A stretch of 36,588 nt of DNA, taken from Halovivax asiaticus JCM 14624 (GTDB taxonomy: Archaea > Halobacteriota > Halobacteria > Halobacteriales > Natrialbaceae). Where the stretch lies: NCBI RefSeq assembly GCF_000337515.1, contig NZ_AOIQ01000013.1:1-36588 (forward strand). The letters are read 5' to 3'. The notes beneath the pieces are model-generated. The model saw only the letters and a list, made by a program, of their open reading frames with translations, was not told the origin of the DNA and made no database searches. Position numbers and translations under genes: made by a program. Shown here one piece after another: positions 1,243-28,372 of the stretch; position 1 is the first letter of the stretch, and every line of letters starts with the position of its first letter.

Positions 1243-2529
1243 TCAGTTCGAGTCGGCAGTCGGTGTCGGCAGGGCGCGCACCTCCCGCGGCGGGAGCAGG
1301 AAGTTGCCCCGTCGTTCGACGGTCACGTACTGCAGGATGCCGTTGTTCAACCGCTGGCCGACCGCCGACGTCTCCGCGATATCGGTACCGTTCATGGCCG
1401 TCCGGGTGTCGACGAAGTCACCGATCCGCCGCTGCAGTGAGAGAAAGTGGAGAGTGGCCCGATCGTCGTCGGTCGAGTCGAAATCGCGCCGGAGGAGCAG
1501 CGGCGAATCGTCCTCACGCGCCCGGGCCGCCTTCTGTGAGTGACCGACCGTGCCGTGCTCCCGGGCGTCGTCCCCGGCGTGGGCGGGGCAGTTCCCGAGT
1601 CCGCTCGACGCGCCGAGATTGTGGCCGGCGCCCTCGACGCGGTCGTCGGCGGCGTGGGCGGGACAGAACATCTTCGAGACTCGCTGGTCGCGGGTGTCCT
1701 GTTCGTACCACTGGTGGAGATTCAGGCGGAGGAGCGAGAGTTGCTGGGTCGTCCCGCCGGCGAAGGGGCCCTCCCGGATCGTCACGCGATCCTCGCTGGC
1801 CTGGTTCTTCTCGAAGCCGGACTTGAAGCCCATGTACATCGGCGACTCTTCGGGCACCGGGTCGGAGTCGGGAACGTCCGACACGTCCTGGTTCTCGGCG
1901 GGGAGGCCCTCGCCGACGAAGCCCGTTCGTCGATCCACTCGCTCGAAGACGCCATCGAGCGTCGCCTCGACTGCGACGCCGTTGAGTTCGTCCAGTTCAC
2001 CGCGCAACGCTTCCTCGGCCGCTAGGACGACGGAGCCGTGATCGCTGGCCAGATGGACGACCGCGTCCGGGCGGTCGAGCGCCGGGTCCTCGAAGGGGGC
2101 GAGCGCCTCGGGTTCTCGCAGGTCGACCGAATCGGGTACCGACGCGTCGAATCGATCGAAGTACGACGGGGCGTAACTCACCGTAAAGAGGAGGCCGTCG
2201 TGACTCCGCTCGTACGCGCGTTCCAGGGTGCGGAACGCGTCCTCGACCGTCTCTCGATCGGCTGCGGTCGGCTCGCCGTCGTCCGCGTAGTCGAGCAGGA
2301 GAAGCACACGGTGGCGCGGTGGGAGGTGGTTCCCGTACTCGTCCGTCGCGAGTCGCTCGTTCCACGCGTGTTGACGCGAGGGGAGCCCCGAGAGGTCGTC
2401 GGGTCCCTGCGGTACGTCGACCTGCGATTCGCGTTCGAGGCAGGCCGAGAGTGCCGCAGACCCACCGATGGCGACGGCGGCTCTGGCGAAGTCGCGACGC
2501 GAGAGGGAGTCGTGTGAGGGAGAGACCAT
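1243..2529 (-). CDS. Tat-exported DyP-type-peroxidase-like lipoprotein (EfeB-like, catalytic Asp replaced)
   Basis: A protein of 428 residues with a Tat signal (SRRDFARAA, residues 10-18) and lipobox LSAC (Cys30), so it is probably anchored outside the membrane. The C-terminal half follows the dye-decolorising-peroxidase pattern of E. coli EfeB: GFKSG (234-238) stands for GFKDG; GGTTQQ...RLNLHQW (258-274) stands for the GGSY...W segment; His330 (VGHSQKAAR) is the likely proximal haem ligand; LLLRR has the conserved Arg347; then comes the LHFLSLQRRIGDFV strand. The catalytic Asp of GxxDG is Ser237. Two CPAHA motifs (Cys289, Cys314) are extra. I think this is the haloarchaeal family annotated DUF7405, but could not check. 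It is divergent from a P19-like metal-binding lipoprotein, which suggests iron handling. A TATA-like CAATTTTACG at about 2635-2644 could serve it through a leader of roughly 85 nt. The reading frame stays open upstream to 3633, but the Tat signal fixes the start. Confidence 0.8.
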   Translation of the reverse strand: MVSPSHDSLSRRDFARAAVAIGGSAALSACLERESQVDVPQGPDDLSGLPSRQHAWNERLATDEYGNHLPPRHRVLLLLDYADDGEPTAADRETVEDAFRTLERAYERSHDGLLFTVSYAPSYFDRFDASVPDSVDLREPEALAPFEDPALDRPDAVVHLASDHGSVVLAAEEALRGELDELNGVAVEATLDGVFERVDRRTGFVGEGLPAENQDVSDVPDSDPVPEESPMYMGFKSGFEKNQASEDRVTIREGPFAGGTTQQLSLLRLNLHQWYEQDTRDQRVSKMFCPAHAADDRVEGAGHNLGASSGLGNCPAHAGDDAREHGTVGHSQKAARAREDDSPLLLRRDFDSTDDDRATLHFLSLQRRIGDFVDTRTAMNGTDIAETSAVGQRLNNGILQYVTVERRGNFLLPPREVRALPTPTADSN

Positions 2530-2796
2530 CGGACGTGGTTCCTGGGGTAGTCGTTCGGGAACGGCTCGGCGCGGCGATCGCCTCGCGGTGCCGTCCCGTC
2601 GACCAGTTCTAGCTCCTCGTTGGCGGCTGGCGAACGTAAAATTGGCGGATGGCGGGCGGGCGGAACCGGTGTGGACCGGCTCGGTTCGCGGCGGTTGGAG
2701 ACCGACTCGATTCGCGGCGGTGATCGACAGCCGAGGCGCCACCCACGACACGTTCGAATCACAATTCGTATGCTGACTGGTCGGGAAGTACCGCCG

Positions 2797-3876
2797 ATGG
2801 AGCGACGGGAGTTCGTCGGGGCGGGCGCTGCGTTCGCGAGTGTGCTGACAGCGGGGTGTGCAGAGTCGGTGACGTCGCTGTTTCAGTCGGAAGACCGCCC
2901 ACGCGAGCCACCGGTCGTCGACGATCGGCCGGACGCGGTGTACGTCCCGACGCACACGGAGGGGATGGAGATGGCCGGAATGGCCCGGGCCGGGCCCTAC
3001 GCAGTCGCCCTCTCGTACAGTTACCCACACCGGTTCTGGACCGTCAGCGGCGACGAGGCGGAGCGAGTGTACGTGCAAGACCCGGGTTCGGCCCACCTCA
3101 TGCTGACCGTCTGGGATCCAGTAACCAGGGTCGTCGTGCCGGTCGGGAGTCCCACGATCGAACTCACACGAGACGGGGACGTCGTCGACCAGCGGGCGCT
3201 CTGGCCGATGCTCAGCCAGACCATGGGCGCCCACTTCGGCGACAACGTGCCGTTTCCCGACGACGGGACGTACACGGCCACTGTCCGGCTGGACCCCCTC
3301 ACGGTCCGACGGACTGGCGACTTCGCCGACCAGTTCGACGAACCAGCCACCGCCGCGATCACGTTCGACTACACTCGTGACGCGCGCGACGGCGTCACCG
3401 TCCGCGAGTATCCGGACGAGCAGGGCCAGAAAGGGGTGGCGCCCCCGGCGACGATGGACGGACCGGCCTCGACGGTCCCCCCGAAGAAGCGGCTTCCCGG
3501 GACCGTTCTCGGCGACGCGACGAGCGGCGACGCCAGGTTCGTCGCGACGGTCGTCGACGACGGCGATCGGCTCGGCGCCGACGGGACAGCCGGAAGGTAC
3601 CTCGCCGTCTCGCCGCGGACGCCCTACAACCACTTTCCGCTCCCCTTCATGGCGGTGTCAGCGACGATCACGCGCAACGAAGAGCCGGTCGTCGCCGACG
3701 AGTCGCTCCGGGCGACACTCGACCCCGACCTCGCGTTCCACTACGGGACCGCGATCGAGGGTGTCGAGGCGGGCGACACCGTCACGCTGTCGATCGACAC
3801 ACCCCCGCAGGTCGCCCGCCACGAAGGGTACGAAACCGCGTTCCTCGCGATGGCCGACGTCGAGTTCACCGTGTGA
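2797..3876 (+). CDS. P19-like iron/copper-binding lipoprotein (two-domain)
   Basis: A protein of 359 residues. MERREFVGAGAAF...LTAGC is a Tat-type signal with lipobox Cys21, so the mature protein should be lipid-anchored on the cell surface. Residues 52-165 resemble the P19/Tp34-type iron_transport domain: HTEGMEMAGM supplies His53 and Met57/59/62, AHLMLTVWDP follows, and MGAHFGDNVPFPDDGTYTATV matches the family's HYG.N...G.Y signature (His146). Residues about 260-359 look like a second, degenerate copy (FHYGTAIEGVEAGDTVTLSI). P19 proteins bind Cu/Fe and work with FTR1-type iron permeases; no permease is seen here. I believe this is the haloarchaeal DUF7350 type. An alternative start is the ATG at 2770; 2797 is chosen because it gives a proper signal peptide. 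Confidence 0.78.
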   Translation: MERREFVGAGAAFASVLTAGCAESVTSLFQSEDRPREPPVVDDRPDAVYVPTHTEGMEMAGMARAGPYAVALSYSYPHRFWTVSGDEAERVYVQDPGSAHLMLTVWDPVTRVVVPVGSPTIELTRDGDVVDQRALWPMLSQTMGAHFGDNVPFPDDGTYTATVRLDPLTVRRTGDFADQFDEPATAAITFDYTRDARDGVTVREYPDEQGQKGVAPPATMDGPASTVPPKKRLPGTVLGDATSGDARFVATVVDDGDRLGADGTAGRYLAVSPRTPYNHFPLPFMAVSATITRNEEPVVADESLRATLDPDLAFHYGTAIEGVEAGDTVTLSIDTPPQVARHEGYETAFLAMADVEFTV

Positions 3877-16503: not shown

Positions 16504-17439
16504 ATGCGCGTCGTGACGACACTCCCCTCCGCGACGGAACTGGTCGCCGCCCTCGGGGTCGACCCGGTCGGCGTCTCTCACAGCTGTGACTACCCGCCGC
16601 GAGTCGCGGATCGACCACGCATCACCAGTGCGGCGATCGACACCGAGGCATCGACCGCCGAGATCGATCGACAGGTGCTGGACGCCGACACCGACGGCGG
16701 CGTCTACGACGTCGACGCCGAGACGATCGAGCGGCTCGATCCCGACGTGATCGTCACGCAGGGCGTCTGCGACGTCTGCGCGGTCGACACCGTGCTCGTC
16801 GCGGACGCAGTCGAGCGAATCGATGCGGAGCCGGAAATCGTCACGATCGATTCCCACACGGTGGCCGGGGTGTTCGACGACCTGGAACGACTCGGGCACG
16901 TATTGGGGCGGGCTGACCGCGCCCGGACGGTTCGCGCCGACCTCGAAGCACGTCTCGAGGCCGTCCGCGAACGCACACCGGACGAACCCGACGCCCGGCC
17001 GAGCGTCGCCGTCTTCGACTGGACGGACCCCGTCATGGTCGCGGCCCACTGGGTCCCGGAACTGGTCGAGATCGCCGGCGGGCGCTACGAACTGGCTGAG
17101 GCCGGGTCGGATTCGCGCCCGCGCGAGTGGGCCGAACTGCGCTCGGCCGACCCCGACGCCCTCGTCGTCGCGCCCTGCGGCTACGACCTCGCACAGACCG
17201 CCGAGAACCTCGGAGACCTCACCGACCGCCCGGGCTGGGGCGAGCTCGCGGCCGTGGAAGGTGGTCGCGTCTGGGCGGTAGACGGCAACCACTACCTCAA
17301 TCGACCCGGCCCACGGCTCGTCGATGCCGCTGAGACGATCGCCCGTCTCCTCCATCCCGACCGGTTCGACGCAGACGACACCCCGGACGCGAGCGTGGCC
17401 CGGCCGCTCTCGGCGCTACAGACCGGGCCGAGCGCATGA
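16504..17439 (+). CDS. Cobalamin-binding protein, BtuF-like (cytosolic type)
   Basis: A 311-residue protein of the BtuF/FepB-type substrate-binding fold. It starts directly in the domain (MRVVTTLPSATELVAALG) with no signal peptide, followed by VGVSHSCDYPP, DPDVIVTQGVCDVCAV, the linking helix, then SVAVFDWTDPVMVAAHWVPELVEIAGG, ALVVAPCGYDL and the last strand GRVWAVDGNHYLNRPGPRLVDAAE. The leaderless, signal-free form is common in archaea and bacteria and is annotated as cobalamin-binding protein; its job may be intracellular corrinoid handling or salvage. No BtuC/BtuD transporter genes lie nearby. It starts 31 nt after VapC. Confidence 0.85.
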   Translation: MRVVTTLPSATELVAALGVDPVGVSHSCDYPPRVADRPRITSAAIDTEASTAEIDRQVLDADTDGGVYDVDAETIERLDPDVIVTQGVCDVCAVDTVLVADAVERIDAEPEIVTIDSHTVAGVFDDLERLGHVLGRADRARTVRADLEARLEAVRERTPDEPDARPSVAVFDWTDPVMVAAHWVPELVEIAGGRYELAEAGSDSRPREWAELRSADPDALVVAPCGYDLAQTAENLGDLTDRPGWGELAAVEGGRVWAVDGNHYLNRPGPRLVDAAETIARLLHPDRFDADDTPDASVARPLSALQTGPSA

Positions 17440-26101: not shown

Positions 26102-26192
26102 GCGGGACGTCACCCCTGCGTCGGGTCAGTCGGCCCCGTCGTCGCACCGACCGTCGCGAATCTTTTTCGCCGGGGACGTGGTCCGACCCGGC

Positions 26193-27023
26193 ATGGCGCC
26201 GAGCGAGCCGGCCGTCACCCTCGACGACGTCCGCAAGACCTACCAGCTAGCCGAGACGGTCCACGCGCTCGACGGGGTCTCGCTCACGCTTCCCCGCGGT
26301 TCGTACACGGCGATCATGGGGCCGAGCGGGTCGGGCAAGTCGACGTTGATGAACGTGATCGGCTGTCTCGACACGCCGACAGAGGGCCGCGTCGTCATCG
26401 ACGGAGCGGACGTCTCGACGCTCAGCGGGCGGGAACGGACGCGACTCCGCGGCATCGAGATCGGATTCGTCTTCCAGACGTTCAACCTGATGCCCCGGTT
26501 GACCGCTCTGGAGAACGTCGCCATGCCGCAACTCTTCCAGAATGTCGGCCGGACCGACAGGAACGAACGGGCGCGAGACCTCCTCGACCGGGTCGGTCTG
26601 GCCGACCGGGCCGATCACCGGCCGAACGAGCTCTCGGGCGGACAGCGCCAGCGTGTCGCGCTGGCTCGCGCGCTCGTGAACGACCCGGCGATCGTGCTGG
26701 CCGACGAACCCTCGGGGAACCTGGACACGGAGACAGAAGCCGGGATCCTCGACCTCTTCGCCGAGTTTCACGACGCCGGCACGACGCTGCTGGTCGTCTC
26801 CCACGAGCGCCACGTCGCCGAGCGCGCCGAGCGGATCGTGCACCTGCTCGACGGGAAGATCGAGCGAATCGAGGCGCTGAACGACGCCCGCAACGGCTCG
26901 GGGCCGCCGTCCGCCGGACCTGACGGAACCCCACCGTCGACCGTTGGACGCGACGAGCACGGCGGTTCGGCGACGGACCGGGGGACGGATCAGGAGGAGC
27001 CAGATCGGGGGCCAGACCGGTGA
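26193..27023 (+). CDS. MacB-type ABC transporter ATP-binding protein
   Basis: A 276-residue ATPase of the LolD/MacB (FtsE-like) class. Walker A GPSGSGKS (43-50), Q-loop [18 protein letters not shown], signature LSGGQRQR (147-154), Walker B IVLADEP (167-173) and the switch His in VVSHERH are intact. Residues after about 235 are a disordered Gly/Pro/Asp-rich tail. Its stop overlaps the permease start (GTGA), so the two proteins form one transporter. Substrate is unknown; MacB-type systems export peptides, lipids or drugs, or act mechanically. TTTTTC at 26162-26167 is a TATA candidate 27 nt before the ATG at 26193. Confidence 0.94.
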
Positions 27024-28372
27024 AGCCGCTCGCCCTGCTCCGCCTCGCCTGGCGGTCGATCGCCGGGCACCGCCTGCGGTCGGCGTTGACGACGCTGGGC
27101 GTCATTATCGGCGTCGCGGCCGTCATCGCGTTCGTCACCCTGGGAGCGAGCCTGCAGGCGGGAATCGTCGGCGACATCAGCCCCGACGACCAGCGCAACG
27201 TCTACGGCTGGGCGGCCGACCCAGGCACGGAGGGTGGTCCGCTCGCCGGGGCGCAACCAGTCGTCAGCGAAGCCGACCTCGCCGCGCTCGAAGAACGCAG
27301 CGGGATCGACGCGGCCTACGGCTACGCGCCGCTCGGCACTCAGGCGGTCGCGACTGGCGATTCCGTCGTCCCACTGGGTGACGGGGCGTTCGCCACCGGG
27401 CCGACGTACGTCAGGGAAGACGACATCGCCACGGGGCGGCAGTTCGAACAGGGCGAACCCGAGGCCGTCGTCAACCCGGCCGTCGCGGGCGCCTTCGAGT
27501 CGAACGTCTCCGTCGGCGACGAACTCACGCTCGTCTTCCAGGGCGGCGAGACGCGAACAGTGACGGTCGTCGGGATCACCGACACGTCCGAGGGCCTGAG
27601 TCCGTTCGAGGGCTTCGGCCAGTCACCGCGGCTGTACGTCCCGACCGATCCGTTCTACGCCGGCGCGGATTCGGCGGCCGACGAGGAGACCGACGGAAAC
27701 GAATCCGCTGAAGAATCCGAGGCCGACGGGAACGCGTCGGCACCCGGCGAAGACGACCCCGGCAACGAGAGCGACGGTGAGGCGGCCGCGGGAACCCGGT
27801 ACACCGCGATCGTCGTCGAGGCACCGTCCGCCGACGACGCGGCGATCGACCGCGCCAAAGAGCAGGCGCGCTCCTATCTGGAGAGCGACGCCTCGGATGC
27901 GAGCGCGCTGTTAGCGAGCGGCGAACTGGAGATCGTCCTCCAGACGAGTACACAATTGCTCTCCCAGCTGCAGGACATCCTCGGCCTGCTGCAGAACTTC
28001 ATCGTCGGCGTGGCGGCTATCTCCCTGCTTGTCGGGTCGATCGGCATCGCGAACATCATGCTCGTCTCCGTCACCGAGCGCACCCGCGAGATCGGCATCA
28101 TGAAGGCCGTCGGCGCACAGAATCGCGACGTCCTGGGGCTCTTCCTCATGGAGGCGATCGTCCTCGGAGTCATCGGCGCGATTCTCGGGACGGCGCTCGG
28201 CCTCGCGACGGGCTACCTGGGAGCCCAGTACATCGACCTCCCGCTGGTCTATCCGCTCGAATACGTCGCCCTCGCGATCGCCGTCGGCGTCCTGGTAGGC
28301 GTGTTCTCGGGGCTGTATCCGGCCTGGAAGGCCGCGCGGACGGACCCGATCGACGCGCTCCGGTACGAGTGA
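27020..28372 (+). CDS. MacB/FtsX-type ABC transporter permease
   Basis: A 450-residue protein that starts at a GTG overlapping the ATPase stop. The first helix ([33 protein letters not shown]) is the typical MacB_PCD start. A large extracellular domain (about 45-325) follows, and then three helices forming the FtsX core: [29 protein letters not shown], then [36 protein letters not shown], and the last helix with [20 protein letters not shown]. An Asp/Glu/Ser-rich low-complexity insert at about 214-255 is a haloarchaeal feature of the exposed domain. It is the partner of the ATPase at 26193. Confidence 0.93.

Follow-up and report, generated by a model that had tools for sequence, protein, structure and literature searches.

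A DyP-fold lipoprotein and a tandem P19-like lipoprotein are encoded together across haloarchaea and may form a metal-handling pair without a permease of its own

The closest described relatives of the locus analysed here belong to bacterial systems. EfeB, the DyP-type member of EfeUOB, is a Tat-exported protein with a proximal haem His, a distal Arg and the Asp of the DyP motif GxxDG. In a Klebsiella DyP this Asp is reported to be essential for H2O2 reduction, and an Asp-less DyP variant was still able to react with peroxide, its Compound I being the stronger oxidant (PMC6153280). A second family, Pfam Iron_transport (PF10634), includes P19, FetP and FtrA, in which copper is bound by His-Met-His ligands. 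In P19 an acidic patch that includes Glu44, Asp46 and Asp92 is the likely iron site (PMC9174327), and copper-loaded FtrA is reported to oxidise Fe2+, making it a possible ferrous oxidase (PMC11966278). In FtrABCD and in the P19 system of C. jejuni (fetMP-fetABCDEF), the extracytoplasmic P19-type protein works alongside an FTR1 permease.

Here we describe a pair of genes from Halovivax asiaticus JCM 14624. The window, meaning the whole stretch of DNA that was analysed, is the 36,588-nucleotide contig NZ_AOIQ01000013.1. The original prediction placed a DyP-like and a P19-like lipoprotein gene back to back at 1243-3876, which is what we find (Table 1), and described them as an Efe-type iron module that lacks a permease. 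The names "Dyp-type peroxidase" and "iron transporter" are already in use for some of these proteins in public annotation, so the identity of the families is not new, and our literature search found no paper naming DUF7405, the family of the DyP-like protein. What is new here is the class-wide coupling of the two families, the absence of FTR1 and the alteration of two sites.

Table 1. Features of the gene pair in the window, with the basis for each
Feature	Position	Strand	Basis
DUF7405 gene, DyP-fold Tat lipoprotein, 428 aa (P0001)	1243..2529	-	PF24152, AlphaFold2, Foldseek, VIA
Tat signal (SRRDF) and lipobox up to Cys30, DUF7405	2440..2529	-	sequence; Cys30 invariant
GFKSG, residues 234-238, counterpart of DyP GxxDG, with Ser237 replacing the catalytic Asp	1816..1830	-	hhalign to nine DyPs; column 237
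His330, counterpart of the proximal haem ligand EfeB His329	1540..1542	-	68/68; hhalign
Arg347-Arg348, counterpart of the DyP distal Arg	1486..1491	-	68/68; hhalign
Intergenic region between the divergent genes	2530..2796	.	coordinates; divergent also in L113 and L114
Two-domain P19-like Tat lipoprotein gene	2797..3876	+	PF10634, PF24041, AlphaFold2, Foldseek, VIA
Domain 1, predicted P19 fold (Iron_transport)	2923..3384	+	model residues 63-208 match P19/FetP/HftA
His109-Leu-Met111: His109 = FetP His44, Met111 = FetP Glu46	3094..3102	+	alignment; both 45/45
Met147...Met152..His155: Met147 = FetP Met90, His155 = FetP His97	3208..3234	+	alignments
Domain 2, DUF7350, diverged duplicate of the P19 domain; invariant His324, Tyr325, His351, Glu355	3490..3870	+	PF24041; hhalign

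The DyP-fold protein DUF7405 and its probable haem site

The DUF7405 gene starts at ATG 2529 on the reverse strand and stops at 1243; a longer GTG-initiated frame lying over it and reaching 3633 is merely a mechanical open reading frame. Searching the PDB with either protein of the pair singly (phmmer) gave nothing useful, so profiles and fold comparison were needed, and no NCBIfam model was found for either protein. Pfam assigned the DyP-like protein to PF24152 (E 6e-170). Of the Pfam families expected from the original prediction, Iron_transport was recovered in the P19-like protein; the window DUF7405 protein itself matched no Dyp_perox model at E<=1. Among 292 haloarchaeal genomes, 24 passed the Dyp_perox_C model PF20628; DUF7405 relatives of other genomes pass this profile, and many of the places that it finds are DUF7405 genes.

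Fold comparison confirmed the assignment of both proteins. AlphaFold2 models of both proteins were built from the window sequence together with alignments of the fetched loci, and that of DUF7405 scored a pLDDT of 90.3 and a pTM of 0.89. The best Foldseek matches were all DyPs (E 7e-16), and VIA superposed the model on a DyP with Z 27.9 and rmsd 3.1 over 299 aligned residues and on Sphingomonas EfeB (6jbn) with Z 27.6. Profile alignment of the family with nine bacterial DyPs agreed (hhalign 99.1%, E 1e-18). As modelled, DUF7405 has the DyP alpha+beta barrel fold, in keeping with the EfeB-like pattern originally read from the sequence.

The haem-site residues are preserved in part. The proximal His330 and distal Arg347 are kept in all 68 aligned DUF7405 proteins. 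The catalytic Asp is not: hhalign pairs the GFKDG of EfeB, which contains Asp235, with the GFKSG of DUF7405, and column 237 of the alignment holds Ser in 54 proteins, Ala in 12, Thr in 2 and Asp in 0. DUF7405 thus shares with EfeB the whole DyP fold, Tat export, the proximal His and the distal Arg, and differs from it in being lipid-anchored, by a Cys30 that is invariant in the 68 relatives, and in having replaced the Asp of GxxDG throughout. Because His330 and Arg347 are invariant and the Asp column is never Asp, these sequences point to a DyP-fold lineage that probably binds haem and is not a canonical DyP peroxidase. Since an Asp-less DyP reacts with peroxide, it would go too far to call DUF7405 "not a peroxidase".

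The family also has irregular members. A second, remoter DUF7405 clade (L083, L092, L104 and L111) is ~42-47% identical to the window protein, and some of its members reach the Dyp_perox_C profile. Partial or broken copies, some with internal stop codons, are clustered in two genomes (L098, L099 and L101 in G113; L097, L100 and L102 in G285). Long frames of 681 and 740 aa occur in L084 (genome G278) and in genome G030, where a break near position 273 divides the profile match, as though a segment had been inserted.

The tandem P19-like protein and its probable metal site

Residue numbers of the P19-like protein (P0002) count from an alternative start at 2770. In that numbering homologues align from M10 onwards, which makes the ATG at 2797 the more likely start. 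The protein has a twin-arginine signal (ERREF) and a lipobox Cys, Cys30, kept in 37 of the 38 alignment rows that extend to that position. With the Tat signal and Cys30 of DUF7405, this agrees with the lipid anchoring that had been predicted for both proteins.

Pfam matched the protein to DUF7350 (PF24041; E 1.7e-57) and to Iron_transport (PF10634; E 7.5e-6, 26.7 bits against a cut-off of 21), the latter partially, over 44 profile positions. A chance match to P19, which we considered since the Pfam match is short, was rejected in view of the fold comparison and the profiles. In the AlphaFold2 model (pLDDT 87.6, pTM 0.82), domain 1 has the P19 fold: Foldseek matched it to P19, FetP, FtrA and HftA (E 1.7e-5), and VIA aligned 135 residues with P19/FetP/FtrA at Z 13.4 and rmsd 2.4. 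By hhalign, domains 1 and 2 are homologous (96.7%, E 4.5e-10), so the description of the protein as two-domain and P19-like was correct. The next fold neighbour of domain 1, at a distance (Z 8.9, 10% identity), is the copper protein CrdA, a copper resistance determinant of H. pylori that has a single domain, unlike the tandem haloarchaeal protein.

What does the metal site look like? We mapped its residues by alignment with two bacterial P19s, anchoring the FetP numbering on the spacing between Glu46 and Met90, residues named in PDB titles. The counterparts of the copper ligands FetP His44, Met90 and His97 are each present in 45 of 45 aligned P19-like proteins, so domain 1 resembles P19, FetP and FtrA in its His-Met-His ligands as well as its predicted fold. 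The acidic part of the site differs. The metal-site Glu (P19 Glu44, FetP Glu46) is Met111 in all 45, the position of P19 Asp46 is mostly Ser, Thr or Val, and an invariant Met152 lies at or beside P19 Asp92, depending on the alignment. A counterpart of the C-terminal FetP His127 is also missing, in that the alignment has no conserved His for it in domain 1. The invariant His351 of domain 2 is in a place comparable to the C-terminal His of P19, and the tandem may therefore work as a covalent pseudo-dimer.

By analogy, the site looks rebuilt towards His and Met, which favours copper, and a conserved His/Met-rich site of this kind means that the protein most likely loads copper. One possible role for the pair is therefore copper trafficking or tolerance. 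The P19-like protein would carry Cu(I)/Cu(II) on the surface, supplying cupredoxins and oxidases or protecting them, and the haem protein would limit copper-driven oxidative damage. The invariance of His109, Met111, Met147, Met152 and His155 and the structural neighbour CrdA are consistent with such a role; against this, a Met-rich site predicts copper by analogy only. Genomic context also bears on this role, as described below.

Co-occurrence, gene order and the missing permease

We searched an even draw of 292 genomes from the class with profiles for the two families. DUF7405 is present in 261 and DUF7350 in 254; both occur in 253 genomes, DUF7405 only in 8, DUF7350 only in 1 and neither in 30 (Fisher p 2e-32, although the genomes are related and their independence is thus overstated). 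Five of the eight genomes with DUF7405 alone have no better copy of it than a divergent or partial one (E 1e-35 to 1e-115). When 393 genomes of the phylum were drawn, all 70 matches fell within the same order. Fold similarity to DyP and P19 and a non-random association of the genes, on which the original prediction had staked itself, were both upheld.

The two genes are also neighbours. Among 62 fetched loci, which are not independent because some genomes are represented twice, 51 carry DUF7405 and a P19-like gene on one stretch, 33 of these within 300 bp. The most frequent arrangement has P19 after DUF7405, both on one strand; several orders and orientations were seen among the 51, the convergent one never. 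The divergent arrangement first noted in the window recurs in two other genomes of the genus (L113 and L114; gaps of 241, 216 and 241 bp in the three) and at four other loci, but it is not the usual layout, as the genes elsewhere are mostly co-directional. The pairing is genuine across haloarchaea.

Could the two surface proteins nevertheless act separately, with genes that lie close merely through the shared ancestry of the region? This would fit the 11 of 62 loci that have no P19-like gene in the fetched stretch (3 of which end near the DUF7405 gene on one side) and the extra copies of either family in several genomes. However, the pair stays together although its neighbours, order and orientation vary, it is kept on plasmids too, and the presence and absence of the two families are tightly coupled. 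We consider separate action improbable.

The permease is missing throughout. A search with the FTR1/EfeU profile PF03239 found no match in the 292 genomes, and control searches with it were positive for E. coli, B. subtilis, Synechococcus and Thermotoga. The pair is thus permease-less class-wide, within the sensitivity of this profile; bacterial P19 genes taken as a further control adjoin an FTR1 gene. In the window no permease was seen in the immediate neighbourhood of the pair, as had been noted originally; the left end of the 36.6-kb contig is only ~1.2 kb away, so the view is cut on that side. Several FecCD-type permeases are encoded elsewhere in the source genome. Unlike EfeUOB, the haloarchaeal pair has no EfeU, and its DyP-fold member is partnered by a P19-like protein. 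Compared with P19, FetP and FtrA, the haloarchaeal protein is a tandem of two domains with no FTR1 neighbour. With FtrABCD and the C. jejuni system the haloarchaeal pair shares an extracytoplasmic P19-type protein, copper proteins near some loci and, in Halobacterium, an ABC ATPase and an FtsX protein that follow DUF7405; it differs in having a DyP-fold partner in place of an FTR1 permease.

The name "Efe-type iron module" is therefore not supported as it stands: the permease is absent, the DyP Asp is lost in 68 of 68 proteins and the P19 Glu has become Met in 45 of 45. The case for iron is not made, and copper is no less likely. Iron could still be acquired without FTR1 if the P19-like protein bound Fe2+ and its copper oxidised this to Fe3+ for siderophore ABC transporters, with the DyP-like protein serving as an EfeB-like haem iron source or as a peroxidase. 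The close fold match to EfeB, the passing of PF10634, the adjacency of bacterial P19s to FTR1, the FecCD permeases and the possible ferrous oxidase activity of FtrA (PMC11966278) fit this proposal, as does an iron-type regulator in the plasmid islands described below. The absence of FTR1 and the conversion of the P19 acidic patch (Glu44 and Asp46; PMC9174327) to Met111 and mostly Ser, Thr or Val weigh against it, and we regard it as rather unlikely.

Metal islands and the possible role of the pair

The neighbours of the pair in the window, an SDR oxidoreductase, a SnoaL-like protein and a polysaccharide flippase, give no hint of a metal role. Positions 1-20 of the contig are a Nextera transposase end (agatgtgtataagagacag); the open reading frame at 6-506 accordingly starts with adapter residues (MYKRQ), and the SDR gene there is truncated. 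Farther along, by sequence appearance, 16504-17439 encodes a BtuF/cobalamin-type ABC binding protein and 26178-28372 holds overlapping, MacB-like ABC ATPase and FtsX-type permease genes.

Recurrent neighbours elsewhere are DUF7471, a small membrane protein; an HTH regulator of the HVO_0163 type; and a polytopic membrane protein of ~500 aa. The polytopic protein is found near the pair in several families, and its copies at L053:10475-11983 and L145:13699-15210 are 60% identical. Neither membrane protein is a likely substitute for the permease: the source genome lacks DUF7471, and the polytopic protein, which has no Pfam match, is near a minority of loci only.

It is on plasmids that the surroundings of the pair speak most strongly for a metal role. 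A near-identical island on four plasmids, from Salarchaeum, Halobaculum, Salinigranum and Haloprofundus, encodes in order an Fe-dependent repressor, a multicopper oxidase, a ZIP-like metal transporter, plastocyanin, an HTH protein, DUF7471, a PEMT-like methyltransferase, DUF7405, two P19 proteins, the polytopic protein, a heavy-metal P-type ATPase and a CDF protein. The repressor is of the DtxR type with a FeoA domain, and the ATPase has a CPC motif. The island is ~15 kb long and nearly colinear in the four genera (L145, L146, L147 and L148), and a Haloarcula plasmid has a shorter form. Some protein accessions recur in more than one genus, for example WP_137685099 in both Salarchaeum and Halobaculum and WP_103427990 in Halobaculum as well as Salinigranum, a pattern suggestive of recent transfer.

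These islands leave the choice between iron and copper undecided. Halocyanin or plastocyanin, multicopper oxidase and the CPC-motif ATPase recur near some loci, which favours copper trafficking or tolerance. However, most chromosomal loci have no copper genes adjoining the pair, and the DtxR-type regulator points to Fe or Mn. Such a role in copper trafficking or tolerance is possible, though we would not bet on it; iron acquisition via an oxidative step that feeds ABC transporters is a rival of similar weight.

The explanation that we favour, and to which we give about half of our confidence, is that the two proteins are an extracytoplasmic haem/copper pair for metal handling, a variant of the Efe/Ftr/Fet systems without its own permease. 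Predicted folds, conserved residues, gene association, the absence of FTR1 and the metal context on some plasmids back it, and from these we infer that haem and copper are bound, which metal is handled by what reaction, and that the two proteins cooperate. DUF7405, exported by Tat and lipid-anchored, would most likely bind haem b, without the distal Asp to which canonical DyPs owe their fast H2O2 cleavage. The partner, likewise exported and anchored, would be a tandem P19, probably a covalent pseudo-dimer and most likely copper-loaded. Oxidative handling of metal would be their joint task outside the membrane: the P19-like protein, loaded with copper, would capture Cu, or oxidise Fe2+ as reported for Cu-FtrA, and the haem protein would supply or dispose of oxidising equivalents. 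Uptake or efflux would then proceed via general transporters (FecCD-type ABC, ZIP, P-type ATPase) rather than a dedicated FTR1 permease. Several observations weigh against this explanation: besides the plasmids, just a few chromosomal loci have a rich metal context, the neighbours in the window give no such hint, DUF7471 is absent from the source genome, and among the most changed proteins given in the main text of an iron-starvation proteome of Haloferax volcanii there is no recognisable member of either family (PMC11349517). The main text of a paper on Cu/Ni stress in haloarchaea names none.

A broader and more tentative proposal is that this is a class-wide archaeal surface system, in which an Asp-less DyP-fold haem protein and a tandem P19 rebuilt as a copper site form a haem/copper redox couple that replaces the permease-coupled iron uptake of bacteria.

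Why does this matter for haloarchaea? About 87% of the sampled genomes encode both families, and the extracytoplasmic handling of copper and iron in these organisms is poorly known. Should the two sites be rebuilt in the way that the sequences suggest, the labels "Dyp-type peroxidase" and "iron transporter" mislead, and the pair would be a natural experiment on how a DyP fold functions when it lacks its Asp and a P19 when it lacks its permease. Both families are present in Haloferax volcanii, where the prediction is directly testable.
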